DNA from: Cordylochernes scorpioides
Lineage: Eukaryota; Arthropoda; Arachnida; Pseudoscorpiones; Chernetidae
Assembly: GCA_030710605.1 (NCBI GenBank)
Contig: CP092864.1
Span: 142,931,361-142,995,360 of the forward strand
Direction: 5' to 3'
DNA: 64,000 nt
Positions 5,550 to 55,329 of the stretch are shown here, piece after piece (position 1 is the first letter of the stretch; each line of letters opens with the position of its first letter). The notes below the pieces were generated by a model. It was given only the letters and a program-made list of their open reading frames with translations, did not search any database and was not told the DNA's origin. A program made the translations under genes and the position numbers.

Positions 5550-5752
5550 CGATCAATTTCCTCTCAGCAAATTTTTCATCTATAATTATTAACTAATCAT
5601 GATTTTTTTTTATTATTCCAGAATGTTGGCTAAATACCCTTTCTTGATTAATTAATAAAAGACAGCCAAATATGCGTTTTAAGATGTTGGCCCTTACAGT
5701 ATGGTGTGTGTGGGCTTATTCTGATGCAAGCCAACTTTCACTTGCATGATCA

Positions 5753-6058
5753 ATGGGGGTCGGTGGAAGGCTGGTTAAACCATTTGGTTTTCGACCACTT
5801 TGACCCGGGTTCGATTCCCGCATTGGACACTTTTTTTCTGTTAAAAAAAAAAAAATGCTCCAATGGCCCCCGATTCTTGCAAAAGTCCAACCCCACCAGC
5901 GAGTGCAAGTAACCAAACGGGGCTCTGGTAAATTTGTAAGTGCAAAGTCGAACTGCTTTTCACATCTGTAGACATGTGGTGCGCTTACAGTAAAAGCAGT
6001 CGCCAACTTCTACCCACCATGATTATCATGGCCTGTACCACTTGCAGTAAGGATATTA
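5753..6058 (+). mobile_element. SINE-T copy
   Basis: Head GGGGGTCGGTGGAAGGCTGG, B box GGTTCGATTCC, body and CCATGATTATCATGG palindrome as in the other copies. Confidence 0.88.
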
Positions 6059-6125
6059 AAAACAATAAAGACATATCCTGACCAAAAGCCCATGTGCTTT
6101 TTAGGTGGCAGAGCACCATCTAGTG

Positions 6126-8558
6126 CAAGCATGTCAAACTCAAATCCTAACACGGGCCAAATAAAAAAAGTAATAAGATTATGTGGGCCGCAAAAAAAGA
6201 AAACAAGTAATTAAATTTTTATAGAAACATTTATGTAGGTTTATTTTAAAAAATACTAATAAGAAAAAAGAAAGTAAAGTTAATATTTTCTTCCTGATAT
6301 TTGGCATCTCTTTTCTGCTACCATCTTTCCTACTTTGGGGGAAATCTTGTTCGCAGTGATTAATTTTAAAACTGACCCAAGGTGAACGTCAGTAATTCTC
6401 GATCTGATTGGAGACTTATTTCCTTTCATAAGTGAAAATAACTGCTCGCACCGATAAGTACTTCCAAACAGGGACATAATTTCATATGCTAATTTTCGAG
6501 TGTTTTCAAATCTGGCTGGCAAATATTTGTAAAATTCAGAAACGCCAACTTCAATGAATTTTGCCTTTAAATTTGAATCGCACTGGATATCTATTACCTC
6601 CATTTGCATATGATTAGGTACTGATTCTATATTTATCGAGAAAATTGAAGAAAACAAAGTAAACTTGCCTTCCAAAGATTTGAAATCCGAAAACCTTGTT
6701 TCAAATTCATTTCTAAGACTTAAAATTTTTTCTGCATATTTTTGATAAGATGCAGTTTCACCAAAATTGATTTGTGCATGTTGCATGTCGGAAAGTGCAT
6801 TAAATCTTCGTTTTTGAACTGCTTTTCCCAAAGAACTAGCTTACATTTGAATGCATTAACTTGGTCACACATGTTGGTAATGATCTGATCCTTTCCTTGC
6901 AGTTTCAAATTTAAATCCGACAAGTGTTTTGTTATGTCAACCATGAAGGAAAAATCTTGCAACCATACTTGATCAGAAAACAAAGTGATGTCTTGATTCT
7001 TGGTTATTAAAAACTGACATATTTCTTCTTTCAAGTCCCAAAATTGTTTGAGAACCTTGGAGCATGATAGCCAACGTACCTCGGTATAGTATGATAAACC
7101 TGAATATTCGCTTTCTAATTCAGTTAAGAACAGAGAGAACTGTCGCTGATTTAAACCTCGAGATCTTAGGAAATTGATGAATTTTTTTATAGGTGTCAAC
7201 ACATTTTCCATTTTTATTACCTTCGTACATAATACTTCCTGATGTATAATGCAATGCGTATGATGAATATTGGAACCATCAGAAATTTCACTTAGTTTTT
7301 TTCGCAGTAATGCTACGAAACCGTTGGTTTTTCCAGTCATTGAAGGAGCTCCATCTGTTGCTACAGAAGTCAATTTTGATTGAGGTAAATTGTATTTTTG
7401 CAGAAGATCATAAACGCAATTAAATATATCTTCTCCTGTAGTAGTGCCATGCATCGGTACTAGTTCCAATAATTCCTCAAAAATGTTGAAATCCGTGTCA
7501 CAAGCTCGAAAAAAAAACAGCTAACAGAGCTACGCCCCCAATGTTCGTACTCTCATCACAGGCAATGGAAAATGCTTCGAAACAAGATGATTTTTCTTTT
7601 ATCTGATCATTCAAATTTCTGGCCATATCAGTAACTCTTTCCACAACGGTATTTCAAGATAAAGATATTGCTTGAAACGTCTTCACACTTCCAGGACAAA
7701 CAATTTCTGCAGCTTTAATTAAACATTCCTTGATGAAATCACCTTCAGTAAAAGGTTTTGAGTGTTTAGCTATCATCTCCGATAAAACGTAGCTTGCATG
7801 CACCGCCGCTTCACTCTCTTGTGATACTTTAGTAAACATAAACTGTTGTCTTTTCATTCCCAACTTGAACTCTTTTAACTTTTCTTGTCTCATTAAACCT
7901 TCGTAGGTATCATATTTTGATTTATGTTGTTCATAATGACGTTTAATGTTATATAATTTTGGTACACTAATAGCATTATTACATATCAAGCAGATGATTT
8001 TATCTTTTACTTCAGAGCAAAAATACTCTAATTCCCACTTTTCTTGAAAATTCCTATGTTCGTCAGCAATTTTCCGTTTAGTTTTACTGCCACTTGGTTT
8101 TGATGAAGACATATTGAATACAAAGGTCTGAAAAAAAATTAGTAATCGCTAACACAAAATAATAAAACGTTTTAATTAATATTTTAAAATTTTTTAAAAA
8201 TTAATATTTTTTAACTTACCAGACACAGAATAACTGCACAAATTATTGAACGTAACTTGAAAAAAAAATTTTTTTTTCTAGTACTCCGAAGGAATATTTT
8301 CTTTAAACTTTAAGGCACACAATACTTATGGCGATGTACATACGTTATGTATGTAGGTATAATATTATCAAAACTTACGACTTATGTATGGCGACCAGTG
8401 GTTCGTTATTAATAAATAAATTATGTATAATTACAATTTTTAAAAATTAGGATACAAATTTTTATTATATATTTTTTTAATTTATAAAAAAAATTTTATT
8501 AAAATATATTGTCTGGTGGGCCGCATGAGGCCCGCGGGCCGCGAGTTTGACATGCTTG
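6126..8558 (-). mobile_element. hAT transposon, 2.43 kb, 8-bp target duplication
   Basis: Terminal inverted repeats CAAGCATGTCAAACTC and GAGTTTGACATGCTTG. Target duplication ATCTAGTG at 6118-6125 and 8559-8566. The subterminal CGGGCC and GGGCCGC motifs are shared with a deletion derivative at 38560-38883. It carries a decayed transposase gene on the minus strand. Confidence 0.95.
6280..8112 (-). pseudogene. hAT transposase (GTF2IRD2/ZBED-like), broken
   Basis: Translated from 8112 downward. The N-terminus has a BED-type finger (CLICNNAISVPKLYNIKRHY, C2-H2 spacing, residues about 40-65). A middle segment has CDESTN and VATDGAPSMTGK, matching the first two acidic positions of the hAT RNase H-like core. 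The C-terminal hATC dimerisation segment has SLFGSTYRCEQLFSLMKG and SRITDVHLGSVLKL. Damage: an in-frame stop near 7655, a frameshift in an A run near 7510 and another near 6825. The ends look intact, so the element could still be moved by a related transposase. Product role: DNA cut-and-paste at the terminal repeats in the nucleus. Confidence 0.9.
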
Positions 8559-8877
8559 ATCTAGTGGAACAGAAATCAACTAAACATTGATTTAGCCTGT
8601 TCTCTGATATTTGGCCAACCCATTTTCTTGATAAATCAAGAAAAGCCATCCACGAACACGTTTCACGCTGTTGGCGCTCGTCAGCATGGAGCCGGCTGTA
8701 CCACTCCGACCAAAAATATTTTTGTCCCAGTGGTTTCTTGAGAAACCAAGAAATGGGTATTTAAGGCCCAACTTATGTAAACACGCTTAACACATGAAAA
8801 AAACAATAGAAAAAATAAAATGGTCAGGTGTTAGGAGAAGCTTTCCTCTTAATTCTATTTATAGTCTGTAGAATCTT

Positions 8878-9920: not shown

Positions 9921-10016
9921 ATCCCTGAAGTGGTCTACTCCCTCAAGTCCCTGACGACTTTGTTCCTCCGCTTCAACAGAATTAAGGTGATCGGGGATGA
10001 GATAGGCAATCTCACA
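9921..10016 (+). CDS. SHOC2: SHOC2 exon a (LRR, 32 codons)
   Basis: Acceptor GTGTGTGTAG precedes ATCCCTGAAG and donor GTAAGT follows. It translates to [18 protein letters not shown] and on to IGNLT. It joins in phase 0 to the next exon's [12 protein letters not shown], reproducing the SHOC2 register. A Tc1-like terminal repeat ends only about 40 bp upstream of the acceptor. Confidence 0.92.
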
Positions 10017-16000: not shown

Positions 16001-19000
16001 CTCTAAAGTTTCGGATAGCCAATGTAACTTTGCGCTCGCTGATGAACCCAGTAACTATATAGATGCAATAACAAGTTCAGATTCAGAAAGATGGAAATTA
16101 GCCATGGATGAAGAGATTGATGCATTAAATAAAAATAAAACATGGACTTTAGAACGTCTGGCAGATGGTCATAAACCTATCAGTTGTAAATGGGTTTATA
16201 AAATTAAAACGGTGTCCGATGGTACAATTCAACGGTTCAAAGCCAGATTAGTTGCAAAAGGCTATTCTCAAATCAAAAATGTTGACTATTTCGATACGTT
16301 TAGCCCAGTAGTCAGGTATGATTCATTACGCATTCTTTTATCACACGCTGCTTCTGAAAGGATGTTTCTTAAGCAATTCGATGTAAAGACAGCTTTTCTC
16401 AATGGCGAATTAGAGGAACTTGTTTATCTTGAACAACCAGAAGGCTACAAGAGAGATGATAATAGCTGCTATAGATTACATAAAAGTCTGTATGGTCTGA
16501 GACAATCTTCTAGAAATTGGAATAAGAAATTTACCAATTTTTTGTATAGCCATAATTTCAAAACATCAGACGCCGACCCGTGCATTTTCATTGGAACACA
16601 CAATGATTCAAATGTTATCTTAGCTCTCTATGTTGATGATGGAATTATTCTATCTAAAGATAAAGAGGCAATAGCTATTATAATGGATGAGTTAGAACAC
16701 GCATTTGATATTACATCTGGAAGTGGTAACTTTTTTGTTGGGCTACAAATAGAGCAGTCAGAAGATAGGGCAAGTATTTTCATTCACCAGTCATCATATA
16801 TTGACAAAATTTTGAGTAAATTTAATATGGCTGACTGTATTCCTGCTTCGGTGCCTATGGATCCTTCTGTCATCTTAACAAAGCAGGACTGTCCTACTCC
16901 AGAACAAAAGGAAAAGATGCCTAAATTCCCTTTTCGAGAAGCTGTTGGATCCCTTATGTTTGCATCATGTGTTTCACGTCCAGATATCACTTATGCAGTT
17001 TCACAAGTGAGTAAATTCCTAGAATATCCAGGACCTGCACATTGTACAACAGTGAAGAATATTTTCCGTTATCTGAAAGGCACTCCACACATGGGAATTC
17101 TCTTCACTGGACAAGACCAACTTGTTGGCTACTCTGATAGTGATTTTGCTCGTGATGTTGACTCCAGAAAAAGTACGACTGGTTATGCCTTCATGATGAA
17201 CGGAGGAACTGTTTCTTGGGCAAGCCAACGACAACCAATTATCGCACTTTCAACCACCGAAAGTGAATACATCGCTGCCTGCAGTGCTGCCAAGGAATTG
17301 ATTTGGATCAGAAGACTTCTACAGGGCATCGGCTGTGATATTACTAAAGAAACTGAACTTTATATCGACAACCAAGCAGCAATAAAACTTGTTGAAAATC
17401 CAGTATTCCACAAACGAACGAAACATTGATGTTCGCTACCACTTCATTAGATCCAAACATGAAGAAGGTGAACTTAAAGTGCATCATGTTTGCAGCTCAG
17501 AACAGCTAGCTGATATAATGACTAAACCTCTTCCACGAAACAAATTCCACTACTTAAGAGGTCTACTGAACATTTTGGATCGAGAGGGAGTGTTGGAATA
17601 GCGATCAAAATTAGCGTGGAGCATTGGGGGATCGACCAATCAACGGCCGCGGCGGCGCTGCAGTCGACGTCAATATATATAGTCCTTTGTCTCTCGCCTT
17701 CCTACATGTACTTGCCTTTAAAATTTTGCTACTTTAACATCTTGTTTTAAGTTACTTTGTTTAATAAATAATCCTTTTATTCCTTGATTCAATCTCAAAC
17801 TTTAACAAAAATAAAAACAAAATCATGTGAAAATATTGCCTTTTTGATCAGTTCCTCTGATAATTTAATTAGTATAAATGCAACCTGCCCCCCATATGTC
17901 AAAAAAAATCCAAGAAAAGTATACCTTATATATAAAAATTAAATAAAAACTTTATTAAAAATATTTTAAAAGGTATAAAAATATATTTTATATAAATATT
18001 ATATTACAATATAGGATACAAAGGCTTACTTGAAGAAGTCTTATTTTTTTCTGCTTTAACATATTCCTAAAAAATTTGGTTTCATATCTAGCAAAGAAAT
18101 CTTCATTTTTTAAAATGAAGCCTAGCTTGTACTAACCACGTATACAAGGCTTCTAAAAGTGGATAATGACACCAACTGTTCTAAGTAGTGCTGTTTGCGG
18201 CAGAACCTGACCATCTTGAGCCTGCGGGAGAACAAGATCAGAGAGTTGCCGGCCACCATTGGCAACCTGACTGAGCTGGCCACTATTGATGCCTCCAACA
18301 ACCACTTGCAGCACCTGCCCCCCGAGATTGGCAACTGCACCCAGCTCACCACCCTGGATGTCCATTACAATGAGTTGTTGGACATTCCGGACTCCATCGG
18401 TAACCTTACCAACCTATCCAGGCTGGGACTCAGGTGAGCTCAGCTAGGTTCTACTGAAACCCTGTCATATCTTTAATATCAAAATTCAAAACTATTTTAA
18501 AGGCTTAAGATTCTTTTTGATATTAAACAATTTCTACTGCCCAACTGGCGAAACCGCTGAGAGGGTTCACCACTGATGAGCCAGGCCCTCTCATTAATTT
18601 TTCCATTGCAGTAAGGGCAGTAGAAATTGTTTAATATCGAAAAGAATCTTACGCCTTTAAAATAGTTTTGAATTTTTTTATAACAGATGGCGCGCTAGTG
18701 CATCATATTATAAATAGTCTGACATATCTTTAATATCAAAATGACTCTAAAGCTAAACACCTTCTATTAACACAAACTAGTGGAATTGAGGAAAATAGCT
18801 CCCTCTTCAACATTACAATTTACACTGACGGTAGCCAACTTGAAACTTCCCACCCTTAGACACCTTTCAGTTTATAAATTGAAACTCTCTGCAATAGATA
18901 CAGCTCTAAAAGACATCAACATCTTCTTCTTCTTTTTTCTTATCTCAAAGCCATGATAATCATGGTGGGTAGTTAGCGACTGCTTTTACCTTAAGCGCAC

Positions 19001-22000: not shown

Positions 22001-25000
22001 CCGGAATGTTTGTTATTTATCCCAACAGTTGGAGACAAAAATCCCACAGCACCCCATCCAGAATCTTTATCAGTCCATGCTGGGTGGCAGCTTGCATCCA
22101 GGCCAGTAGGGTTCCAATTCTCAATTTGTGATGATCAAACTCTGAATATAACAATTAACCCTTGAACGCGCGCGCTAAAAATGTAATGTACTTGCGCGCG
22201 CTGGGTGAAATATACCCGATATTATAATTATATATTTTGAACATAAATATTACATGAGGGAAAAAACAAAACCTTTTCTATTTCAAAGTAACAACATTTT
22301 AAATATAAAAAAAGGCCATTATTAATAAAATATTTATATTTTTTACACAGATTAAACATTTTAAAAATTATTCTTGAATAATGCGTAAAATTGGTAGTGG
22401 TGTATAAAATAGGAATCTATTGCTCCTTTCCAATATTGAAAATATAAAATTCCATGAGGAAAATTTAAACAAACTATATACTATTGTTGCAAACCGCAAT
22501 TGTATGTCTTTTACAACATGACTTTGCACATTTATGGCACAAAGTCGAGGTCTTCCTGTCCTTACTGGAAGGACACACTCTACATCTGGTAGGAAGCTTT
22601 ATTTTCCTCACCTTCTTGATGGCTTGAAGTGCCTTCTAAAAATGAATTTAAATAAATATTTAGAGTATACATTTATGATTTCAATTAACTTATCTGTAAA
22701 AAAAAGGATTTTTTTTTTTTACTTAGTCCTCTAGGCAGTGAAGAAATACTTTTCCTTTGATTTAGTTTTACGTAAATGCCATTTTTATTGGAAGTCTTGA
22801 ATTTGAAACATAAATTTGTATTTGTAACGACCAGTGCAGATGAACAGCGCAGAACGTCCAGAATATAGATTGTCTTTTTTTTTGGTAAAATTGACCGAAA
22901 TGTGAACTAAGTCAGTGATTGAGGACGCAGAAGAGAGCGACTCCTCTCTTGATCCAGTGGCGCTGAGGCATGTTGGATGGGATGACAGGACGTAGTTGGT
23001 GGAATGACCCGTGGTAGAGAGGGTTCCGACCCTGGCTAGGGTATTGTAGACAGGGCTGACGTAGATGTTGTTGGTGGGCGGCGGGACGTCAACTTGCGGT
23101 ATCATATGGTTCATTGCCGGTGTAGAGCTCCTTGGGCACGGACTCCAGGAGTGTCCCAGCGAGCTCCCTCCAGGAACAGTCCGTAGATGTAACAGCCCTC
23201 GGTCAGGATCTTGAAGCCAAAGGAGATCTTGTCGATGGAGACTTGATGCTTGCGGGCATAGTTCTGCAGGCTGCCAGTAAGGAAGGCCTGGGGGAAGTAG
23301 AAGCCGGAGATCCAGAAAGCAGGCGGAATGCCCCGGGCCACCCGCCGCGACACATAGTCCAGGCGGTCTATCAGGTTGGCTACCCAGGACGATAGCGGCT
23401 TCAGCGAGGGGTAGGCCTTGGCTGCCCAGAGTTTGGGTACTGCGTTAAGAAAGAGGCTGCCGGCCATATTCTCCAAGGCCTGGGACATGGCCACAATGCC
23501 TTTGAAGGCCTTCAGCAGGTCCTTGAGAGTGCCGTTGATGATGTTCAGGAGCTTGTTAAATCTGATCGTCTCCTGATTCAGCACGGTGTTCATGGACTGC
23601 TCATACAGCAGCAAGTAGCGCTCCGAGATCAGCTTGATGTTGAAGGGCTTAGGGATCTGGGCCGTGTGCGCGATCACCTCTTCTCGAGACTGCTTTGATT
23701 TAGTTGCTCTTTGATGAGTTCAAGGGCCAAGCATTTCAAGAATTTTCTTCTAAAGAGCTTCTAAAGGTGTATTTTAATTTTTTGCTTCTTCACCTTTCAT
23801 GCCTAGTAAATGTGTAATGACATTAGGCGTTCTCAGCTTTACTGTTTGTGAAGGACAATTTTTGTACCATTTGGTTTCGAGGCTCTCCCTATATAAAAAT
23901 GTGTTTTTGGGATAATTTCCTTATCCCCAAATTCCCATATCTGAATATATTCCAGTGTCACTTCCTGAAAAATGTTCACTTTGATTATCTTCTTCAATAT
24001 CGCTTTCTACAATAGTCTCTTCTTGATCTAATAAATATGACATGGAGGGAAGACTCCATTTTATATAGAATTATAGGCTGATAAATATATCAACCTATTA
24101 TAGTTATTTTTTAAATTATTAATTCGATTTATTTCTCTCTCTCAAAAAAAAATTATCAAAGAAAAATACAACAAAAAAATTACGTGAGTGTGCGCACCGA
24201 GTGATTTTTACCCGACAGTGACAATAGATGGAATTTCAGTGACAGCTGTCAAAATGTAAAACCAGAACTTTAGACTAAATGATGAGTCAGGAAGCTAAAC
24301 GAAACCACAACTCCGCCAACCGATTTTTTATTGGTTAATTCTCCATTCAAATGTTGCCATGGGTAATTTTCACCCGGCGCGCGCAATGCCGGGTTAATGG
24401 TTCTGAAATTTCATTCGTTTCTTCACATGTTCTTAACATACTCCAATTTTTTTGTTATAGAGTGTATATACATTGACTTGGGCAACTCTGTGCTTCACTT
24501 CCATCAATAATTGACAATATGACCCAGTATAAGTTTATTGCTGCGGCGTTTTATGGTTTCCACAAGTCCCTATCTCAGAAGAAGGCCAAGTGACACTCAC
24601 TCCTCACTTTCTTACTGCTACTCTTTTTGTGTTGTTTTTCTTCTGTCTATATCGTTGTTTCCTTTGTCTCACTGCTTTGTTCTTATGCATACCTCTGGTG
24701 AATCCTGTATAGGGTCAGTGACCCTAAATAAAGGTTTTTTGTTGTTGTTGTTGTTGTATATACATTGACTTTGTATAAATATAGGATGCTAAAAAGTGGC
24801 CACTTTTAGTAGTGACATTATTCCATCCCGAGACCTTCCTCAACATTTGATGTTATCAAGCTAGCTGGCCTGGGATGTGACACAAGAGAGGATGTGCAGG
24901 TACAACCAGCTGACCTCCATCCCCAGCACACTGTGCCAGTGCACCAACATGACAGAGTTCAACGTGGAGAGCAACTGCATCTCTGAACTACCAGTAGGTT

Positions 25001-28000
25001 CCTATGTCTATCTCTACACATTGGTGCATCTCTGAACTACCAGTAGGTTCCTTGCCTATCTCTACATATTGGTGCATCTCTGAACTACCAGTATGTTCCT
25101 AGTCTATCTCTACACGCTAGTGCATCTCTGAACTACCAGTATGTTCCTATGCCTATCTCTACTCGTTGGTGCATCTCTGAACTACCAGTATGTTCCTATG
25201 TCTATCTCTACACATTGGTGCATCTCTGAACTACCAGTAGGTTCCTATGTCTATCTCTACACATTGGTGCATCTCTGAACTACCAGTAGGTTCCTAGTCT
25301 ATCTCTACACATTGGTGCATCTCTGAACTACCAGTAGGTTCCTATGTCTATCTCTACACATTGGTGCATCTCTGAACTACCAGTATGTTCCTATGCCTAT
25401 CTCTACACATTGGTGCATCTCTGAACTACCAGTATGTTCCTAGTCTATCTCTACACGCTAGTGCATCTCTGAACTACCAGTATGTTCCTATGCCTATCTC
25501 TACACATTGGTGCATCTCTGAACTACCAGTATGTTCCTATGCCTATCTCTACTCGTTGGTGCATCTCTGAACTACCAGTATGTTCCTATGCCTATCTCTA
25601 CTCGTTGGTGCATCTCTGAACTACCAGTATGTTCCTATGCCTATCTCTACTCGTTTGTGCATCTCTGAACTACCAGTAGGTTCCTATGTCTATCTCTACA
25701 CATTGGTGCATCTCTGAACTACCAGTAGGTTCCTAGTCTATCTCTACACATTGGTGCATCTCTGAACTACCAGTATGTTCCTATGCCTATCTCTACACAT
25801 TGGTGCATTTCTGAACTACCAGTATGTTCCTATGCCTATCTCTACTCGTTGGTGCATCTCTGAACTACCAGTATGTTCCTATGCCTATCTCTACTCGTTG
25901 GTGCATCTCTGAACTACCAGTATGTTCCTATGTCTATCTCTACACGCTAGTGCATCTCTGAACTACCAGTATGTTCCTATGCCTATCTCTACTCGTTGGT
26001 GCATCTCTGAACTACCAGTATGTTCCTATGTCTATCTCTACACGCTAGTGCATCTCTGAACTACCAGTATGTTCCTATGCCTATCTCTACTCGTTGGTGC
26101 ATCTCTGAACTACCAGTATGTTCCTATGTCTATCTCTACACATTGGTGCATCTCTGAACTACCAGTAGGTTCCTATGTCTATCTCTACACATTGGTGCAT
26201 CTCTGAACTACCAGTAGGTTCCTAGTCTATCTCTACACATTGGTGCATCTCTGAACTACCAGTATGTTCCTATGCCTATCTCTACACATTGGTGCATCTC
26301 TGAACTACCAGTATGTTCCTAGTCTATCTCTACACGCTAGTGCATCTCTGAACTACCAGTATGTTCCTATGCCTATCTCTACTCGTTGGTGCATCTCTGA
26401 ACTACCAGTATGTTCCTATGCCTATCTCTACTCGTTTGTGCATCTCTGAACTACCAGTAGGTTCCTATGTCTATCTCTACACATTGGTGCATCTCTGAAC
26501 TACCAGTAGGTTCCTAGTCTATCTCTACACATTGGTGCATCTCTGAACTACCAGTATGTTCCTATGCCTATCTCTACACATTGGTGCATTTCTGAACTAC
26601 CAGTATGTTCCTATGCCTATCTCTACTCGTTGGTGCATCTCTGAACTACCAGTATGTTCCTATGCCTATCTCTACTCGTTGGTGCATCTCTGAACTACCA
26701 GTATGTTCCTATGTCTATCTCTACACATTGGTGCATCTCTGAACTACCAGTAGGTTCCTATGTCTATCTCTACACATTGGTGCATCTCTGAACTACCAGT
26801 AGGTTCCTAGTTTATCTCTACACGTTGGTGCATCTCTGAACTACCAGTAGGTTCCTAGTCTATCTCTACACGTTGGTGCATCTCTGAACTACCAGTAGGT
26901 TCCTAGTCTATCTCTACACGTTGGTGCATCTCTGAACTATCAGTAGGTTCCTATGTCTATCTCTAAACATTGGTGCATCTCTGAACTACCAGTAGGTTCC
27001 TATGTCTATCTCTACACATTGGTGCATCTCTGAACTACCAGTAGGTTCCTAGTCTATCTCTACACATTGGTGCATCTCTGAACTACCAGTAGGTTCCTAT
27101 GTCTATCTCTACACATTGGTGCATCTCTGAACTACCAGTAGGTTCCTAGTCTATCTCTACACGTTGGTGCATCTCTGAACTATCAGTAGGTTCCTATGTC
27201 TATCTCTACACATTGGTGCCTCTCTGAACTACCAGTAGGTTCCTATGTCTATATCTACACATTGGTGCCTCTCTGAACTACCAGTAGGTTCCTATGTCTA
27301 TCTCTACACGTTGGTGCATCTCTGAACTACCAGTAGGTTCCTATGTCTATCTCTACACGTTGGTGCATCTCTTAACTACCAGTAGGTTCCTATGTCTATC
27401 TCTACACATTGGTGCATCTCTGAACTACCAGTAGGTTCCTATGTCTATCTCTACACATTGGTGCCTCTCTGAACTACCAGTAGGTTCCTATGTCTATCTC
27501 TACACATTGGTGCCTCTCTGAACTACCAGTAGGTTCCTATGTCTATCTCTACACATTGGTGCATCTCTGAACTACCAGTAGGTTCCTATGTCTATCTCTA
27601 CACATTGGTGCATCTCTGAACTACCAGTAGGTTCCTATGTCTATCTCTACACATTGGTGCATCTCTGAACTACCAGTAGGTTCCTATGTCTATCTCTACA
27701 CATTGGTGCATCTCTTAACTACCAGTAGGTTCCTATGTCTATCTCTACACATTGGTGCATCTCTGAACTACCAGTAGGTTCCTATGTCTATCTCTACACA
27801 TTGGTGCATCTCTGAACTACCAGTAGGTTCCTATGTCTATCTCTACACATTGGTGCATCTCTGAACTACCAGTAGGTTCCTAGTCTATCTCTACACATTG
27901 GTGCATCTCTGAACTACCAGTAGGTTCCTATGTCTATCTCTACACATTGGTGCATCTCTTAACTACCAGTAGGTTCCTATGTCTATCTCTACACATTGGT

Positions 28001-31000
28001 GCATCTCTGAACTACCAGTAGGTTCCTAGTCTATCTCTACACATTGGTGCATCTCTGAACTACCAGTAGGTTCCTGGTGTATCTTTACACATTGGTGAAT
28101 CTCTGAACTATAAGGGTTACACCAATAAGGACAACACTAGAACTTTGCAGGAATAAAATTCACTACAATTATCTGTGGCTTCAATCAATTTTGATTCTGC
28201 ACCATTCTCATCTAAATCGGTTGCTGCCCTTTGGAGGAATATCATGTCACTGGATCTACCAATTCATCGAATCTGAACACCACCACCATTTGAATCCACG
28301 GTGATGTGCAGAAGGGGCTGCTGTCCAGTCTGCCCAACCTCACCATCATCAGCCTCTCCCGCAACCAGTTCACGGCCTATCCTGCTGGAGGCCCCTCCCA
28401 GTTCTGTAACACCACGGTGAGTCAGGCTGCTCTCATCCTTCATCCTCTCTCTCATCCCTGCTGCTGCTGTCTAGAGTCTCAACATGGACCACAACCAGAT
28501 TGACAAAATTCCTTTTGGCATCTTCTCCCGGGCTAACAACCTTGTCAAGCTCAACATGAAGGACAACCACCTGACTTCCCTGCCTCTAGGTGAGACCACC
28601 AGCAGTTTGGATTTAAGTTTTCTGGTACAAATTTAAGCAGTTTGGATATATATATATTTTTTTGCTTATCCCTAGTACACGTGGTACAGGCCATGATATC
28701 ATGGTGGGTAGTTAGCGACTGCTTTTACTCTAAGCGCACCACATGTCTACACATGTGAAAAGCAGTTCGACTTTGCACTTACAGATGTGCCAGAGCCCCG
28801 TTTGGTTACTTGCACTCGCTGGTGGGGTTGGACTTTTGCAAGAATCGGGGGCCATTGGAGCATTTTTTTTTTTTTTTTTTAAACAAAAAAATTGTCCAAT
28901 GCGGGAATCGAACCCGGGTCGTAGTGGTCGAAAACCAAACGGTTTAACCAGCCTTCCACCGACTCCCTAGTTTGGATATAAGATTTCTGGTACTATTATT
29001 AACCTGAAATAAGATTTAAGGCCAAAACTTTTTGGTCCCCTTTGCTTGGTCTTCAATCAAGGATTGCCTGTAGCCAACCAAAGTAAGAGTCTTCACAAGC
29101 TCAGCTCACTGAATGAAAGGATCACCTGAGAGGGTGTGGGCAGACTTTGGGACCTGGGGCGGCCTGGTGGAGCTCAACCTGGGCACCAACCACCTCACCA
29201 AGGTGCCTGATGACCTGCAGAACCTCCAGAGGCTAGAGGTACTCATCCTCTCCAACAACCAGCTACGGCGGCTGCCCTCCTCCATCGCCTCCCTCACCCA
29301 CCTCCGTGTGCTGGACCTAGAGGAGAACTTGCTGGAGGCCCTGCCCACTGAGATTGGTCAGTCACAATGTCTTCTTACATTTCTATTTATTGTACACCTC
29401 TTAACTTCAGTCCCTTCGCTAGTAAAATCACTCCTTTAATCATCTTCTATGTTTGTTGTTTCTTATTCCCTTGTGCAAAGATTACACAAATTCCTTTAGA
29501 ACATACTCCTCGAGCCGTTTGATGATAAGCACCAGCCTCTCCTAAAGGTCCTGTTTAGTGCATCTAATCCAGTGATTTTAGATTTGTTTCAGAGGCTGTA
29601 CCATAGATTTGATATCCATATTCCAGGATAGGTCTAATTAGGGATGTGTAAGTTAATTTTAGTGTGGTTGCATCGGCTCCCCACTCTCTTCCTGAAATAT
29701 ATTTCAGGATTTTTAGTCGGTCTCTTCCTTTACTGGAGTTAATTTCTGGATCCAGGGTGTAGCCAAGATATTTAGGATGTTTATTATATTGCAATTGTTG
29801 TTCTTTCAGAATAATTTTTGGTCCTATTTTGTATAGTTTCTTATCGGTAGTAAAAAGACAGGTTTAAGATTTTTGGGGGTTAAATTCTAATTTATGCTTA
29901 TTAGCAAATTTTTCTAGGTGGAAAAGAGTCTTGTTCAAATCTCTTTCAGCTTTTTTCCAGTTAGTATTGCTGCTCCATAGAATAATGTCATCAGCGAAAA
30001 GTCCAATATTGGTTTTATGTGAAATTTTTTCTTCTATGCCTGCAATAAATAGGGTGAAGAGAGTTGGGCTAAGGACTGATCCTTGTGGTAATCCTTGGTA
30101 CAATTTGAAGGTTTTAGATAGAGTGCCATTATATTTGACCCTGATGTATCTATTTTTAAGGAAATCATTTATCCAAGTGATAGCTTTTCCATCAATTTTG
30201 AAATGTTTGTATAATTTTGTAATTAACTTGTTTTTTATACCTTATCAAAAGCTTGTGTAAGGTCTAAAAAAGCAGCTATTGTGTGGTTAGTTGGTTTTCT
30301 GTTTTGTGCATCTTTTACCTTTTGTGTGAAAAATAAGAGTTGGTCTATTGTCCCATGTACTTTCCAAAATCCATATTGTTCTTCTGGTAAGAGTTTTCTT
30401 GTTTCGAGGTGGAAGGTGAGTCGTCTGAGTATAATTTTTTCCATTAATTTGCAGCAATTTGGGTCATCAGCAGATTTGTCAAGTTTTTTAATAGGAATTA
30501 TTGTTGCAGTTTTCCAATCTTGAGGCAATTTTCCAGTTTTCCAGGAGTTATTGAAAATTTCAAGAAATCTTTCTTTGCCATTTTTGCCCAAGTTTGATAT
30601 CATTTGGCCATGGATTCCATCTGGCCCAGGAGTCTTGTTCAGGTCAGTGTTTTCTAATGCATAATCTAGCTCTTTCATATTGATTTTTTCATGGAAAATA
30701 TTATGAGTGCTAGTGACATTTTTACAGTCATGGATAATCTTTCGGGCCTTTTTTTCAACTTTCTTATCTTTTATTTCAAATTTGATTTTACTACTTATTT
30801 GATATGAATTACCTAAAAGATTGGCAGCATTTTTGTCATTAGTTGCTGGGGTACCATCTGTATTCTTAATCATATTTGTGTTTTCAATTTGTGGCTGGGC
30901 TCTGTCAATTTGTTTTGCCAAATGCCAAAGTTTTGTATTTGGGTTTCTTGGGTTCAGGTTTTCACAAGTTTGTTTCCATTTTTCCCTTTTCATATTTACG

Positions 31001-37000: not shown

Positions 37001-37477
37001 TGTTTACCAATGAAACCATATGTTCCAGGCTACCTTCGGGAGCTCCAGAAGCTGAACGTACAGGGCAACCAACTGACCTCTCTCCCTCGCACCATTGGAC
37101 ACCTGCTGAGTCTGACCCACCTCACTGCTGGGGAGAACAACCTGAGCTCCATCCCGGAAGAGATCGGTGAGTCCCCACTATTGGACAATCTGCAGCAGCC
37201 ACATGCACTCTTGTGCCCCAGGCACTCTGGAGAAACTGGAGTCTGTGTACTTCAATGACAACCCCCACCTCCAAAGCCTGCCGTATGAACTGGTGCTCTG
37301 CAACAACCTCCAGATCATGAGCATCGAGAACTGCCCGCTCTCTCAGATTCCCCCGGAGATAGTGTCAGGAGGCTCCTCGCTCATCATCCAGGTAGGCCCA
37401 GTCAGCCAGTGAAGTTCCCCAACAAATGGAGTGTGTGGCAGCACCTCAAGCTCAAAGGCCCCTACAGATCCATGTGA
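9921..37477 (+). CDS. SHOC2: SHOC2/Sur-8-like leucine-rich repeat scaffold, C-terminal 398 codons in nine exons (gene span)
   Basis: Nine exons with AG/GT borders join in phase into 398 codons and a TGA at 37475-37477. The translation follows animal SHOC2 from the middle LRRs to the end. Recognisable segments are [77 protein letters not shown] and a terminal GPYRSM. The length matches the family's C-terminal part (human protein about 582 aa). Family knowledge: SHOC2 is a cytoplasmic all-LRR scaffold that binds MRAS-GTP and the PP1 catalytic subunit, which dephosphorylates an inhibitory site on RAF. The N-terminal RVxF-bearing part and first LRRs are not in the window, so at least one intron runs off its left edge. 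Introns measure 8187, 6466, 3318, 58, 554, 7672, 55 and 50 bp; the long ones are filled with transposons. I see no in-frame stop or frameshift, so the gene looks functional. Confidence 0.93.
10246..10423. repeat. Tigger/pogo-like MITE
   Basis: Ends ACAGTAAAACCCCTTTATAG and GTGAGGCTTTACTGTA, with internal GGTTCACTATAGCC. Partial copies at 13147 and 20605. Confidence 0.7.
10437..10612. repeat. Foldback FB5, uninterrupted copy
   Basis: Arms AAAAATGGCATATCCTGACC and GGTCAGGATATGCCATTTTT, with central TTTCTTGATAAATCAAGAAA-type sequence. It shows what 6060-8700 looked like before the hAT insertion. Confidence 0.8.
11030..11605 (+). mobile_element. LINE-B 3' end, 5'-truncated
   Basis: A degraded frame gives an RNase H segment ([19 protein letters not shown]), then the C-terminal zinc-like region and the tail TTACACAAGGGGATAAGAAA plus CAA repeats. 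Several frame breaks; no full ORF. Confidence 0.75.
11625..12040 (+). mobile_element. sLA copy, tail on the right
   Basis: Runs from CTCCGCCTTTGCCGGTCCC to AAGCTTTACAAGCTTGATAC and GGAGATAAGAAGG. The only nearly full sLA copy in + orientation here. Confidence 0.8.
12345..12512. repeat. Foldback FB2
   Basis: Arms AAGGTAATAAGACCAAATAA and TTATTTGGATTTGGTCTTAT around a TAACAGTGTTGTTA centre. The right arm extends through ATAATCCAAATTGTGCCTTA. Confidence 0.72.
12513..13146. other. Intronic stretch without recognised gene or element
   Basis: AT-rich, no open frame of note. A TCTATAAAAATG phrase near 12566 recalls a Helitron 5' end, but no CTAG end was found. Confidence 0.4.
13147..13240. repeat. 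Tigger/pogo-like MITE, truncated
   Basis: Begins ACAGTAAAACCCCTCTATAG and carries GGTTCACTATAGCC twice. The right end is missing. Confidence 0.65.
13366..13581 (+). repeat. Copia-1 5' LTR
   Basis: 216 bp, TGTTGGAATAGCG to CTTCAACA. Contains GC-rich GGCCGCGGCGGCGCTGC followed by TATATATAG, a plausible promoter region. Confidence 0.93.
13582..13596 (+). promoter_or_regulatory. Copia-1 primer-binding site
   Basis: GGTTATGGGCCCAGC directly follows the LTR. It matches the copia-type site complementary to an internal (anticodon-arm) part of initiator tRNA-Met rather than its 3' end. Confidence 0.82.
13729..15993 (+). CDS. Copia-1 gag-protease-integrase ORF
   Basis: Start chosen at ATG 13729; the frame is open earlier but without ATG. 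Gag occupies about residues 1-220 with [22 protein letters not shown] knuckle [14 protein letters not shown] lies near 230-245. Protease active site WYADSGAS near 283. The integrase has an HHCC region about 418-465 and DDE core residues at [15 protein letters not shown] and [10 protein letters not shown]. The C-terminal GKPN-like segment [18 protein letters not shown] is present. The ORF ends with TGA overlapping the next start as ATGA (15990-15993). Copia proteins are usually one polyprotein, so this break is either damage or a -1 recoding site. Confidence 0.93.
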   Translation: MSEDCLSRIKVFNGENFSLWKFQFRLLLEQQKLLELLEGLEIKPNVVSSDSNSESSLQNWKSKDVKARMLLSQAIELKFLQPLMNCTSASQMWQKLLAIHEQKSEFTIGLLWQQFFDARLTSETISDYIAKIENISAQISQMGGTITEDQKVAKILNTLPSSMRYFVAAWESLDPKAQTLNNLTARLLIEETRYQQSGSSKQDEALLHRQARTKPKDTQRSFQDAKKNTKCHYCHKIGHWSRECRKRLANEKNKSKNLHDSKGSSSDYGLILCDNQVEPNDIWYADSGASCSMTFRREWFKTYTPFTSDHPIYLGDNSTLLAEGMGDIEIQAYVDGGWYNTYIRNVLYSPQLKKNLYSLSTSTRRGFNVIIKHDKLQIFMDNDLKAVGVRHDGLYRMLFKVTSSSSQGYITSENKLQLWHERLAHLPVATLREMATKGLVDGLQPQDLEGEFFFCEGCQLGKAHRKSCYPSDGKNYQLGEFIYADICGPMQTQSLSKYLYFCLFKDYFSGYRHIYFIKNKSDVLDIFKEYATLIYTQTGNKIKVLRTDNALEFKSDNFADLCKRFGIIHEFTAPYVHEQIGRIERDNRTIVEAARSMLNSRNLPGFFWAEACNTATYILNRSATKQTPGTTPYELFFGTKPNVANYKIFGCNAYMHIPKENRKKWDNKSIKLMFLGYENTSKNFRLWDWKTRKIRISKDVTFDEKATPHSDRESTKPKEIIFQINSAPDESPVATTNFPVQEMLPVSDISSHIQ
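15990..17429 (+). CDS. Copia-1 reverse transcriptase-RNase H ORF
   Basis: RT motifs in order: [40 protein letters not shown] and catalytic LYVDDGI. RNase H has [20 protein letters not shown] and [12 protein letters not shown]. The frame stops at TGA 17427-17429, where a likely 2-base loss shifts the remaining RNase H codons into another frame (to 17601). In family members these domains act in the virus-like particle to copy the element RNA into DNA. Confidence 0.92.
   Translation: MITRSKVSDSQCNFALADEPSNYIDAITSSDSERWKLAMDEEIDALNKNKTWTLERLADGHKPISCKWVYKIKTVSDGTIQRFKARLVAKGYSQIKNVDYFDTFSPVVRYDSLRILLSHAASERMFLKQFDVKTAFLNGELEELVYLEQPEGYKRDDNSCYRLHKSLYGLRQSSRNWNKKFTNFLYSHNFKTSDADPCIFIGTHNDSNVILALYVDDGIILSKDKEAIAIIMDELEHAFDITSGSGNFFVGLQIEQSEDRASIFIHQSSYIDKILSKFNMADCIPASVPMDPSVILTKQDCPTPEQKEKMPKFPFREAVGSLMFASCVSRPDITYAVSQVSKFLEYPGPAHCTTVKNIFRYLKGTPHMGILFTGQDQLVGYSDSDFARDVDSRKSTTGYAFMMNGGTVSWASQRQPIIALSTTESEYIAACSAAKELIWIRRLLQGIGCDITKETELYIDNQAAIKLVENPVFHKRTKH
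17422..17601 (+). pseudogene. Copia-1 RNase H C-terminal remainder after frameshift
   Basis: The open frame gives [20 protein letters not shown] and [15 protein letters not shown], the usual C-terminus of copia RNase H, ending inside the 3' LTR. Separated from the main ORF by the break near 17424. Confidence 0.85.
17591..17807 (+). repeat. Copia-1 3' LTR
   Basis: 217 bp. Differs from the 5' LTR by four substitutions and a one-base insertion (T run near 17684). AATAAATAATCC is a plausible polyadenylation region. Confidence 0.93.
17813..18203. other. Intronic DNA without recognised element
   Basis: AT-rich, no open frame of note; ends in the acceptor of SHOC2 exon b. Confidence 0.5.
18204..18433 (+). 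CDS. SHOC2: SHOC2 exon b (three LRRs)
   Basis: Acceptor TTTGCGGCAG, donor GTGAGCT. Encodes [16 protein letters not shown] through LSRLGLR and ends in phase 2 (Arg codon split AG/G). It is the best conserved stretch of the gene in the window. Confidence 0.95.
18475..18680. repeat. Foldback FB3, intact
   Basis: Arms TTCAAAACTATTTTAAAGGC and complement. Near the centre, TTTCTACTGCCC and its inverse flank GGGTTCACCACTGATGAGCC. Confidence 0.82.
18760..19695 (+). mobile_element. LINE-A 3' end (RNase H to tail), split by a SINE-T
   Basis: The frame gives RNase H starting [13 protein letters not shown], then after the [20 protein letters not shown] and [20 protein letters not shown], then the C-terminal [14 protein letters not shown] and tail GGAGATAAGAAG. 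A stop (CCCTTAG) in the first part and an internal deletion that removes the zinc-like CTKC region make it a pseudogene. The RNase H type is that of jockey/I-group LINEs. Confidence 0.82.
18923..19221 (-). mobile_element. SINE-T inserted in LINE-A, LINE-A-like tail, 12-bp target duplication
   Basis: AGACATCAACAT at 18911-18922 and 19222-19233. The minus-strand element begins with the usual tRNA-like head but ends GAGATAAGAAAAAAGAAGAA, the LINE-A tail, instead of the usual GGGATAAGCAAAAAA. Confidence 0.88.
20000..20350 (-). mobile_element. sLA copy
   Basis: Tail complement CTTATCTCCACTCAATCATA on the left, head CCGGTCCC... region on the right. Continues into an LINE-B 5' fragment. Confidence 0.78.
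20351..20500 (-). repeat. LINE-B/sLB 5' fragment
   Basis: TTTGCCTGTGATTTGAGGCT and GAGTACAGATGCAGCTCCTC match 36655-36770 of the full LINE-B. Confidence 0.65.
20605..20668. repeat. Tigger/pogo-like MITE fragment
   Basis: AAAATCCCTCTATAGTGAAC and GGTTCACTATAGCC match 10246 and 13147. Confidence 0.55.
20675..21743 (+). mobile_element. Non-autonomous Helitron, split by a solo LTR
   Basis: Begins TCTATATATATAAAAATG after an A and ends CTAG before a T, with a GGTGA/TCACC hairpin just before the end, the Helitron signature. Without the inserted LTR it is about 360 bp. A second copy is at 52126-60927. Confidence 0.85.
20971..21679. repeat. Solo LTR-like insertion (709 bp) in the Helitron
   Basis: Absent from the second Helitron copy, whose sequence is continuous across the site. 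Runs TGTGGGAACACGGG to ATTATGACA, with TATAT on both sides. No coding sequence. Internal repeat GGTGCTAACTCGATGGT occurs twice. Superfamily not assigned. Confidence 0.7.
21800..22154 (+). pseudogene. Tc1-like transposase C-terminal fragment
   Basis: The frame gives [24 protein letters not shown] and [18 protein letters not shown], the second D and final D/E region of Tc1 transposases. The N-terminal half is missing. The remnant continues past the piggyBac insertion to about 24470. Confidence 0.8.
22480..22640 (-). pseudogene. piggyBac transposase C-terminal cysteine-rich domain
   Basis: The minus strand reads [20 protein letters not shown] followed by AKSCCKRH, the C2-C2 / H-C ring of piggyBac transposases that binds the end repeats. 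Preceded by an intron-like GTAA...TTTTTAG stretch. Confidence 0.75.
22768..23692 (-). pseudogene. Processed retrocopy of an axonemal dynein heavy chain C-terminus
   Basis: Uninterrupted by introns. It reads [45 protein letters not shown]-type [68 protein letters not shown] and, in a third frame, [14 protein letters not shown] then a stop at 22912-22914. At least three frameshifts (near 23145, 23118 and 22990). 13-bp direct repeats CTTTGATTTAGTT at 22755-22767 and 23693-23705, and an AATAAA signal on the minus strand just before its 3' end, show LINE-type retrotransposition of an mRNA, 5'-truncated. GC-rich like the host exons. The parent gene is not in the window; which DNAH paralogue is unclear. 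Confidence 0.9.
23706..24043 (-). pseudogene. piggyBac transposase N-terminal part
   Basis: From ATG 24043: an acidic start ([20 protein letters not shown]), then after frame breaks [10 protein letters not shown] and [16 protein letters not shown], phrases at the start of the piggyBac catalytic region. A stop follows GIWG. Not functional. Confidence 0.78.
24398..24470 (+). repeat. Tc1-like remnant, right part after piggyBac
   Basis: Continues the Tc1 3' region beyond TTAA. No coding sequence remains. Confidence 0.45.
24478..24766 (+). mobile_element. LINE-C-type 3' element
   Basis: Same as 48956-49255 and 63853-64000. Begins TTGGGCAACTCTGTGC and carries an open stretch ending [24 protein letters not shown] and a TGA. 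Tail CCCTAAATAAAGG followed by TTG repeats. Confidence 0.8.
24900..24993 (+). CDS. SHOC2: SHOC2 exon c (LRR; its end is repeated in a minisatellite)
   Basis: Acceptor GATGTGCAG, then G completing the Arg codon and [12 protein letters not shown] through NCISELP. The donor is CCA/GTAGGTTCC. The last 18 exon bases plus this donor form the first unit of the 3.1-kb tandem array that follows. Confidence 0.92.
24976..28111 (+). repeat. 48/49-bp minisatellite, about 64 units, each with a copy of the SHOC2 exon c 5' splice site
   Basis: The unit reads as TGCATCTCTGAACTACCA (exon end), then GTAGGTTCCTATG or GTATGTTCCTATG, then TCTATCTCTACACATTGG. Units are 49 bp, or 48 bp where CCTATG is CCTAG. The first unit overlaps the last 18 bases of the exon, so the array grew out of the exon-intron border. 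Variant units (GTAGGT or GTATGT donors; ACACATT, ACTCGTT or ACACGCT spacers) recur in blocks. A rare GCATTTCTG variant appears at about 25805 and 26587, suggesting block duplication by unequal exchange. The array fills almost the whole 3.3-kb intron. Confidence 0.95.
28312..28416 (+). CDS. SHOC2: SHOC2 exon d
   Basis: Acceptor GTGATGTGCAG, donor GTGAGTCAGG. Encodes [20 protein letters not shown] through [10 protein letters not shown], 35 codons, phase 0 at both ends. Separated from the next exon by a 58-bp intron. Confidence 0.92.
28475..28589 (+). CDS. SHOC2: SHOC2 exon e
   Basis: Acceptor GCTGCTGTCTAG, donor GTGAGACC. Encodes [20 protein letters not shown] through HLTSLPL and leaves one base (G) of an Asp codon. 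Confidence 0.93.
28651..28968 (-). mobile_element. SINE-T copy with 12-bp target duplication
   Basis: AGTTTGGATATA at 28639-28650 and 28969-28980. Full head with GGTTCGATTCC B box, body and poly-A (T run on +). Lies in the 554-bp SHOC2 intron between exons e and f. Confidence 0.92.
29144..29356 (+). CDS. SHOC2: SHOC2 exon f (three LRRs)
   Basis: Acceptor GTGTGGGCAG, donor GTCAGTC. AC completes Asp, then [20 protein letters not shown] through [10 protein letters not shown]. Phase 1 exit. It is followed by a 7.7-kb intron holding a LINE with a nested copia. Confidence 0.93.
29564..31384 (-). pseudogene. LINE-B reverse transcriptase, frameshifted
   Basis: From 31384 leftward: an EN end (SDHLPI), a linker, then [61 protein letters not shown] and catalytic [11 protein letters not shown], and a thumb-like [12 protein letters not shown]. 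Breaks near 31130, 30235-30100 and 29830 disable it. Confidence 0.88.
31385..31622 (-). repeat. Copia-2 3' LTR
   Basis: 238 bp; on the minus strand TGTTGGAAAGTAACG to CTGTTTTATTCTTACA. A purine tract AGGTGGGAG precedes it on the minus strand. Confidence 0.93.
31610..33199 (-). pseudogene. Copia-2 reverse transcriptase-RNase H, broken by two frameshifts
   Basis: [52 protein letters not shown] and catalytic IYVDDCLI (33199-32480). A shift in a T run near 32525 moves to the frame 32469-32185, and another near 32205 to 32044-31610, with RNase [13 protein letters not shown] and [10 protein letters not shown]. In the original element one protein covered this and the gag-integrase ORF. Confidence 0.9.
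33296..35533 (-). CDS. Copia-2 gag-protease-integrase ORF
   Basis: Start chosen at ATG 35533 ([20 protein letters not shown]); upstream codons belong to the LTR. CCHC knuckle [14 protein letters not shown], protease [11 protein letters not shown], integrase zinc region with [12 protein letters not shown], core motifs [15 protein letters not shown] and [11 protein letters not shown], then [19 protein letters not shown]. Ends at a TGA that is in frame with the following RT region, so a nonsense mutation rather than a frameshift. Confidence 0.92.
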   Translation of the reverse strand: MTTELPQIQKFNGDNFHLWKFKMKIILEAKDLLSITDGSEVKPEIEDIAKFSNWKKKDAKSKMLITTALEFKYLQQIVNCQTSAEMWKKLSTIYELKSETNKYLLQQRFFEYKMNPNDNIATHISKVETLAQQMKDLGEPISDVALITKIICSLPDKYKNFITAWDSVSSEEKTLENLTARLLKEESLQDHWDSSGNSKPDNALMTFSKFNRNSTASNKQQQHQQSIKDKKKNTHCGYCKKKGHWWKECYKRKEEQKGQQPSSSSRDDSCAFSAETSAFLAETKDSWIADSGATDHMTFRREWFSTFEEIPEGVHPVCLGDGKKIYAKGKGNIDILSYVDSQKINATLLDVLYVPELETNLFSISTATKHGLTLICKGNQIKLTKNSKVLVTGIKDNSNLYRIFIKAKQSSQTHVAQLSLDIWHQRMGHVNPIKLTQMFENNVFEDDIKIREKPDSLLCEACIYGKQNRKVFHASTSPNSTYPGELIYSDVCGPMSKRSPGGSLYFVSFKDDFSRCRVAYFIRHKSDVLEKFKEFVKRVRTETGNKIKRFRTDNGTEFLNKNFSDYLKSLGIVHELTAPYTPEQNGIAERDNRTIVESARCLLHGRKMPLELWAEAVNTAVYLLNRCTTKVLGNSTPYEIWYKRKPSILHLKTFGCNAYVHIPKDNRKKLDKKSIRTFFVGYTETNKNYRMWDPIARKIIISRDVIFTEANTSENIQDNQQEQVTIYSEESVDNTNTSSKPEESC
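35588..35602 (-). promoter_or_regulatory. Copia-2 primer-binding site
   Basis: The minus strand next to the LTR reads TGGCAGCAGAGCTTGG, one base off the TGGTAGCAGAGC complement of the 3' end of initiator tRNA-Met. Copia-1 uses an internal part of the same tRNA instead. Confidence 0.65.
35603..35840 (-). repeat. Copia-2 5' LTR
   Basis: 238 bp, nearly identical to the other LTR. Contains CCGGCCGG and CACGTGAC blocks. Confidence 0.93.
35846..36530 (-). pseudogene. LINE-B apurinic-type endonuclease domain
   Basis: The minus frame contains [11 protein letters not shown] (catalytic N), LQENKL (E), FNMYHPPNN and [14 protein letters not shown] (the GDxN motif), and [20 protein letters not shown]. 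These are the APE-type endonuclease signatures of jockey-group LINEs. The frame is open until cut by the copia insertion. Role: nicks target DNA to prime reverse transcription. Confidence 0.87.
36590..36967 (-). repeat. LINE-B 5' region (shared with sLB elements)
   Basis: Minus strand from CCGCCCTTGGCAGAGC through ATGAAGGCCAGCTGCGAAAC to GATCATGGTGCCATGATCAA. The last 180 bp recur in sLB copies at 4850, 46218 and 50006, joined there directly to the LINE-B tail. Confidence 0.75.
37029..37166 (+). CDS. SHOC2: SHOC2 exon g
   Basis: Acceptor TATGTTCCAG, donor GTGAGTCC. Encodes (G)[19 protein letters not shown] through SIPEEI. Phase 1 exit into a 55-bp intron. Confidence 0.93.
37222..37391 (+). 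CDS. SHOC2: SHOC2 exon h
   Basis: Acceptor TTGTGCCCCAG, donor GTAGGCCC. Encodes (G)[19 protein letters not shown] through GGSSLIIQ. Reading past the donor gives a stop after six codons, VGPVSQ, which does not fit the family. Confidence 0.93.
37442..37477 (+). CDS. SHOC2: SHOC2 terminal exon (11 residues and stop)
   Basis: After a 50-bp intron ending [20 protein letters not shown] and TGA give the conserved SHOC2 C-terminus (the family ends QFLK.QGPYR.M). Too short for an ORF scan; found by continuing the phase-0 splice. Confidence 0.85.
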   Translation, partial: HLKLKGPYRSM

Positions 37478-40524: not shown

Positions 40525-41040
40525 TTTATGGCAGAGTGTTGGTAGCCAAGCTGTTAGAAAACATTTGTTCTAAAGAGAATGATTCTATAGGTACCTTCAC
40601 TCTAAAGAATGGCCTACAGAGCGAACACTATGGAGTGTGATTAAGTCAGCCTGGATGTTGCTGATGCCAGCTGTCCCATGTTTTATGGCAGAGTGTTGGT
40701 AGCCAAGCTGTTAGAAAACATTTGTTCTAAAGAGAATGATTCTATAGGTACCTTCACTCTAAAGAATGGCCTACAGAGCGAACACTATGGAGTGTGATTA
40801 AGTGTTGCTGATGTCAGCTGTCCCATGTTTTATGGCAGAGTCTTGGTAGCCAAGCTGATAGAAAACATTTGTTCTAATGATTCTATAGTTCACTCTAAAG
40901 AATGTCCTACAGAGCGAACACTATGGAGTGTGACTGAGTGTTGCTGATGTCAGCTGTCCCATGTTTAATGGCAGAGTGTTGGTAGCCAAGCTGTTAGAAA
41001 ACATTTGTTCTAATGATTCTATAGTTCACTCTAAAGAAAG
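40525..41040. repeat. Tandem repeat, four units of 136-157 bp
   Basis: Unit starts at 40531, 40688, 40835 and 40971 with GCAGAGTGTTGGTAGCCAAG. Units contain ACAGAGCGAACACTATGGAG. Successive units are shorter through small internal deletions; the last is cut. Confidence 0.9.
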
Positions 41041-53262: not shown

Positions 53263-53278
53263 TCGATTTAAAGGAAAT

Positions 53279-55303: not shown

Positions 55304-55329
55304 TTAATAACGAGTTTACAAAGTGGGAA

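Follow-up and report, generated by a model that had tools for sequence, protein, structure and literature searches.

How does a spliceosome settle on one 5' splice site when dozens of similar copies follow one another immediately downstream? The SHOC2 gene of the pseudoscorpion Cordylochernes scorpioides poses this question as a natural experiment. We analyzed a window of 64,000 nucleotides (contig CP092864.1, C2:142931361-142995360) within a searched genome of 2.62 Gb in 24 contigs, and describe a minisatellite at positions 24976-28110 of the window that starts inside coding exon c of this gene and carries the splice donor of that exon 64 times. A sequence-only reading of the same DNA had reported an array of about 64 units and proposed that either the spliceosome reliably picks the first site or the array acts as a U1-binding tract or a length-dependent regulator of SHOC2 output. 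Its interpretation was partly supported. The array is real, and it is probably a nearly neutral, length-variable minisatellite of the 'mirage' type known from amphioxus, with the first donor being the one used.

An array of donors at the end of SHOC2 exon c

The boundaries and copy number of the repeat were obtained with Tandem Repeats Finder, and the array was then split unit by unit. The program returned a period of 49, 64.3 copies, 95% matches and a score of 5395; besides a T run, this was the sole array of more than three copies in the window at the default score threshold. Splitting gave 64 complete units, 48 of them 49 bp and 16 of them 48 bp long, followed by a partial last unit of 15 bp that holds no donor. 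Each complete unit comprises the 18 bp that end exon c (or a close variant of them), a GT donor, and a remainder that is intronic, and the repeat spans the exon-intron boundary, starting 18 bp inside exon c and reaching 3.1 kb into intron c. The exonic segment is TGCATCTCTGAACTACCA (24976-24993), with 4 of the 18 positions variable among the 64 units. The donor reads CCA/GTAGGT in 37 units, CCA/GTATGT in 25 and TCA/GTAGGT in the remaining 2. The weaker GTATGT donors are confined to units 3-36 (25073-26731), and units 1, 2 and 37-64 all carry GTAGGT.

Nine coding exons, labeled a to i, lie between positions 9921 and 37477 (Table 1). Joined and translated, they give 398 residues that align to SHOC-2 chains of the PDB (E value 8e-172) over 398/398 residues, ungapped across the junction of exons c and d (CCA/GTAGGT ... 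GTGATGTGCAG/AAGGGG), which is in phase 0. Because the joined exons align to SHOC2 without a gap, the first donor of the array (24994) is the authentic donor of exon c, as had been claimed. No other donor adjoins the full exon.

An origin as a dispersed satellite or transposon was rejected: all 34 hits of a genome search with the array sequence, in which the best candidates only were scored, fell within two copies of SHOC2. Recursive (ratchet) splice sites consist of an acceptor directly followed by a donor, YAG/GT. The donors of the array, which read CCA/GTAGGT, TCA/GTAGGT or CCA/GTATGT, do not have this form; a TAG/GTTCC is present inside the 39 of 64 units with GTAGGT, and its GTTCCT looks poor as a donor by eye.

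A second copy of the locus and the fate of its reading frame

A 191-base query from around exon c located a second place, about 57 kb upstream, that matched at 99%. It belongs to a stretch of 35,063 bp (C2:142881549-142916611) in the same orientation on the same scaffold, flanked by runs of 100 N and 14,749 N, the latter ending one base before the window. Some of these N runs may stand for withheld sequence and not for gaps. Homology to window positions 4813-42183 runs from the first to the last base of the stretch. Bases 1-589 match window 4813-5402 at 97.3%. The main left piece, whose end lies about 1 kb short of exon c, is 99% identical; the left end reaches 91-97% and approximately the last 2 kb on the right 90-94%, with repeats in both ends. 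Two pieces inside the second copy are unmatched, one of about 130 bp toward its left end and one of 314 bp toward its right. About 3 kb of the window (approximately 5668-8624) are absent from the second copy; minus-strand open reading frames (ORFs) at 6280-8148 in this segment look transposon-like, and a Pfam scan of one of them gave no match. A tandem repeat of 136 bp with 2.7 copies, at 40656-41038, also seems to differ in copy number between the two, judging from an alignment to C2:142914028-142915373 that is shifted several times. Protein hits numbered 22; 6 belong to the two copies and the other 16 share 26-32% identity, so a third copy of SHOC2 was rejected.

Divergence in the flanks is low. 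Over two main alignments outside the array, which exclude window positions above 40,500, the ends of lower identity and roughly 1 kb immediately before the array, 107 of 27,608 aligned sites differ (0.39%). Across the nine exons (exon h shortened by one base) there is a single substitution, silent and at a third codon position, and one N. In the second array we counted 54 complete units (38 measuring 49 bp, 16 measuring 48 bp) before the same partial unit; GT is intact in 64/64 units of the window and 54/54 of the second copy. Both copies have unit types A, M and E close to the 5' edge in common, along with the degenerate last unit and the majority of the last 19-20 units. The middle of the array differs in unit type and number, and in the unit-type string of the window a run of seven types is present twice, 16 units apart. 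The edge unit, shared by both, has diverged from the rest, and the interior has turned over. Shared ends and a rearranged middle, set against 0.39% in the flanks, therefore indicate that the array has changed more than its surroundings, as minisatellites do.

By sequence comparison the two copies are probably alleles, the second kept as an unpurged haplotig, because the stretch is almost wholly contained in its neighbor and has no unshared sequence at its outer ends. If so, gene counts at this locus would be doubled in the assembly. A true young tandem duplication, which would make SHOC2 a pair of paralogues, one with 64 and one with 54 units, is unlikely. It would agree with the shared orientation on one scaffold and with ends that are less similar than the main left piece, though those ends hold repeats; a stretch bounded by N runs and homologous from first to last base is the pattern of a haplotig, and the divergence is just 0.39%. 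The N-terminal part of the gene also speaks against duplication: an exon resembling part of the SHOC2 N-terminus, upstream on the same scaffold near C2:142877768, turned up a single time across the scanned stretches. The motif scans that were run missed at least one further exon, located between it and exon a.

The possibility that the array is an artefact of assembly had been raised together with its description. Tandem arrays are hard to assemble, and the exact copy number remains uncertain. An artefact is nevertheless extremely improbable, because the array recurs, with 54 units, the same two ends and a different interior, in a separate stretch set apart by N runs; we regard the array as genuine.

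The two copies differ in what follows the use of a later donor. In the window, each of donors 2-64 extends exon c into the TGA at 25033-25035, the 14th codon (63/63), exactly as the sequence-only reading had it. In the second copy, unit 2 has TTA where the window has TGA, so that this stop is a property of the window copy only. Donors 2 and 3 of the second copy yield products that read into exons d or e before stopping, and those of donors 4-54 end inside the array (51/51). All later donors lead to a premature stop in both copies (63/63 and 53/53), at different places, and the stop that condemns a mis-spliced mRNA can thus differ between two copies of one array.

Donor choice and its alternatives

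We envisage a tandem duplication of a segment across the boundary of exon c and intron c, after which slippage or unequal exchange raised the number of copies beyond 50. Exon c (94 nt) would be recognized by exon definition, its acceptor pairing with the nearest donor, which is donor 1, and donors 2-64 would be spare U1 sites that leave with the intron. Exon definition is likely, and donor 1 should win, because the introns are long on both sides of the exon (6466 nt before and 3318 nt after). The small fraction of transcripts that might use later donors would meet the premature stops described above and presumably undergo nonsense-mediated decay. The array would be tolerated and vary in length close to neutrality, and any loss of SHOC2 output that depends on its length would be small; it probably lengthens the intron without changing the protein.

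Near neutrality was examined by comparing variable sites in the exon-plus-donor part of the unit (24 positions) with those in its remainder (25 positions). In the window 5/24 positions vary versus 11/25 (p 0.13), and in the second copy 7/24 versus 13/25 (p 0.15). Both comparisons lean toward constraint, short of significance. Selection on the donors thus lacks significant support in either copy, and homogenization alone can explain their uniformity.

Published experiments, cited here and below from parts of each paper, favor the first site. In five minigenes with two identical donors, spliced by exon definition, the upstream donor was used exclusively; when the donors were weakened the upstream preference persisted in the two smaller constructs, and the larger exons were preferentially skipped (PMC9225289). 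In competitions between 5' splice sites of near-equal strength, the upstream site was favored in 60% (PMC9225289). By analogy with these minigenes and with amphioxus mirages (PMC3087553), choice of the first site is the better supported of the two proposals made in the sequence-only reading.

Donor strength was taken as the ViennaRNA duplex energy against the 5' end of U1, in which pseudouridine was scored as U. GTAGGT gave -5.3 kcal/mol and GTATGT -2.9 kcal/mol, and calling the donors 'near-equal' was too strong. Outside the array, between 8 and 42 kb of the window, 9.3% of 1,605 GT sites score as well as GTAGGT, or about 5 per kb; GTAGGT donors within the array reach about 12 per kb (39 in 3.1 kb). 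The purine-rich motif GGAGA/GAGAG is present once in exon c but absent from the array. It might mark donor 1, a weak hint from one motif. RNA structure that hides the later donors was rejected as an explanation from a comparison of donor 1 with the next 19.

Several considerations weigh against a simple victory of donor 1. Predicted local folding and accessibility of donor 1 are no different from those of the next 19 donors. The signals of exon c are weak: its acceptor has 4/17 pyrimidines, the fewest of the eight SHOC2 acceptors listed, and its donor is the second weakest of eight SHOC2 donors, which range from -5.0 (exon f) to -11.1 kcal/mol (exon b). Strict exon definition is therefore not guaranteed. 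The skipping of larger minigene exons with weakened donors (PMC9225289) also counts against the simple reading. Before matching for strength, the downstream site is preferred in about 60% of 4,171 human 5' splice-site competitions; most outcomes follow strength and not position, the stronger site being dominant in 86% (PMC9225289). A proximity rule centered on the intron would favor the last donor. All the splicing rules cited derive from human cells.

The closest human parallel is not harmless. Intron 18 of ABCA7 holds a variable number tandem repeat of 25-bp units, 12 to about 427 of them, that starts at the exon-18 donor (PMC5954066). The isoforms comprise the canonical one, a minor frame-shifting retention of one unit, use of a cryptic acceptor, and skipping of exon 19. 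Retention of one unit, in which the next donor is used, amounts to 2 +/- 1% (as the word 'respectively' in the source is read) and is unchanged with array length. Skipping of exon 19 becomes more frequent as the array lengthens, reaching 45 +/- 10% in one region of the brain, and longer arrays go with lower expression; in brain the sum of the alternative isoforms is often larger than the canonical isoform (PMC5954066). These isoforms therefore support the first donor over the next, yet warn that length can matter.

The functional proposals have to be set against this background, and we found no evidence for a U1 tract or a length-dependent regulator, the exon-plus-donor part being not significantly less variable than the rest of the unit. 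It is quite unlikely that the many donors raise local U1 occupancy beside a poorly marked exon, helping to define exon c or blocking premature polyadenylation, with array length tuning SHOC2 output. The proposal gains from the poor acceptor and donor of exon c, from the intact GT of every unit in both copies and from a single AATAAA just past the array, at 28152; in vitro, moreover, a downstream donor raises recruitment of U2AF and U2 to the upstream acceptor (PMC8724738). Yet constraint on the donors is not significant, 25 of the 64 are the weaker GTATGT, and exons f and i have acceptors nearly as poor (5/17), with a weaker donor in f, and no array there. The consensus base at donor position +4 is A. 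In the array that position is G or T, never A.

Length-dependent regulation may keep some room by analogy with ABCA7, where the length of a donor-bearing array correlates with expression and exon skipping (PMC5954066). A brake of that kind, by which a longer array brings more one-unit retention and next-exon skipping and lowers SHOC2 without any selected function, strikes us as rather unlikely. The anatomy is similar to that of ABCA7, in which longer arrays go with lower expression and more skipping of a downstream in-frame exon; exon d, at 105 nt, could likewise be skipped in frame, and array length does differ between the two copies. In ABCA7, however, one-unit retention does not change with length, and its authors discuss protein-binding motifs of the unit as the cause (PMC5954066). 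The more ambitious idea of a natural rheostat, in which dozens of moderate U1 sites set the recognition of exon c and of the in-frame exon d and length tunes the amount or form of SHOC2 and RAS-MAPK signaling between individuals, is decidedly improbable; since array length changes faster than the surrounding sequence, SHOC2 output would then vary between individuals. Very improbable is the conversion of units into exons, whereby a CGCTAG acceptor-like end, the 18-nt copy of the next unit and its donor would form an in-frame microexon encoding CISELP. Such ends occur in 5/64 units of the window (within 25073-26340) and 2/54 of the second copy, those of the window have 11-12/17 pyrimidines, above six of the gene's eight listed acceptors, and a model for amphioxus globins proposes recruitment of mirage units as exons (PMC3087553). 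The exon would be a candidate only, very short at 18 nt, and the repeated segment would disturb the spacing of the leucine-rich repeats. A nearly neutral mirage with donor 1 in use remains our preferred account, and the 64 and 54 donors offer a natural test of donor choice, because junction counts would show whether proximity to the exon fixes the choice and how errors fall off along the array.

Table 1. Positions in the window of the array, its donors and the SHOC2 exons
Feature	Position	Strand	Details and basis
Minisatellite	24976..28110	+	64 complete 48/49-bp units and a 15-bp partial unit; unit split
Authentic donor GTAGGT, unit 1	24994..24999	+	Phase-0 junction to exon d; ungapped protein alignment
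63 supernumerary donors, from unit 2 donor to unit 64 donor	25043..28071	+	Unit table
TGA met from any of donors 2-64	25033..25035	+	63/63 later donors
Intron c, 3318 nt, 3117 nt of them array	24994..28311	+	Whole intron 2828 nt in second copy
SHOC2 exon a, first SHOC2 exon found in window, 96 nt	9921..10016	+	Protein alignment
SHOC2 exon b, 230 nt	18204..18433	+	Protein alignment
SHOC2 exon c, 94 nt, phase 2 in and 0 out, acceptor GATGTGCAG, donor CCA/GTAGGT	24900..24993	+	SHOC-2 PDB alignment
SHOC2 exon d, 105 nt, skipping keeps frame	28312..28416	+	
SHOC2 exon e, 115 nt	28475..28589	+	Protein alignment
SHOC2 exon f, 213 nt	29144..29356	+	Protein alignment
SHOC2 exon g, 138 nt	37029..37166	+	Protein alignment
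SHOC2 exon h, 170 nt	37222..37391	+	End set by CAG/GTAGGC donor
SHOC2 last coding exon i, TGA stop	37442..37477	+	Protein alignment

Other elements were observed within and beyond the gene, and a COX1 search of the genome returned a single fragment, of nuclear location. Antisense in intron b, at 22785-23719 on the minus strand, two ORFs that lie in different frames correspond to successive portions of the C-terminal domain of the dynein heavy chain (PF18199), and the pair is either a broken copy or a frame error of the assembly. Just upstream of exon c, at 24464-24771, a 16-bp direct repeat, GTATATACATTGACTT, brackets an insert of about 276 bp that terminates in (GTT)n; the insert is possibly a truncated retroposon and the repeat its target-site duplication. 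Two 78-bp stretches at 52711-52788 and 60385-60462, with the same 41-bp consensus and score and 1.9 copies each, flank long ORFs at 53252-59969 and may mark the two ends of a long terminal repeat retrotransposon.

Comparison with known systems

In the open-licence literature we found no publication that combines SHOC2 and a minisatellite, a search that cannot prove that none is in print, and no same case was recognized by title or abstract among open-licence papers on tandem repeats, splice donors and arthropods. The kind of repeat is rare but known, having been named in amphioxus and studied medically in humans.

Minisatellite expansion at exon-intron boundaries, in the form of internal tandem repeats, alters boundaries and splicing in human genes of segmental duplications as it may do here, although those units are on average 30 bp long and repeated four times, in recently duplicated genes, and are linked to novel introns (PMC2812944). 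Intron gain through segments that bear AGGT likewise involves tandem duplication across splice signals (PMC4974935). Intron c of SHOC2, in contrast, has a normal acceptor outside the array and gives no sign of being a new intron. As in SHOC2, the ABCA7 array lies at the start of an intron and includes the donor of the exon, and the donor one unit further on is sometimes used and shifts the frame; there the first two bases of the unit are the donor and the parts of the report cited describe no exonic portion, whereas each unit here carries 18 exonic bases (PMC5954066).

The nearest relatives are the mirage minisatellites of amphioxus, found in Adh3, the globins BflGb6 and BflGb9, and TnC, with similar repeats in PGBD5; those of the globins and Adh3 are said to leave regular splicing undisturbed (PMC3087553; PMC3902484). 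In these arrays, too, many units hold splice signals and edge units escape homogenization, and the copy number of BflGb6 differs between haplotypes (PMC3087553). Here the 64 and 54 units stand in two copies that are probably alleles, with paralogy the less likely reading. Units of Adh3 measure 10-72 bp, a range that covers the 48/49 bp of SHOC2 (PMC3087553; PMC3902484). The scale is different, BflGb6 having 6 and 3 units of 150-160 bp and BflGb9 one 157-bp duplicate (PMC3087553), against 64 and 54 units in SHOC2. The number of donors that each come with exonic sequence, together with the host gene, is apparently new with respect to the portions of the papers compared. Mirage-like arrays can, in short, reach a large copy number in a conserved signaling gene.

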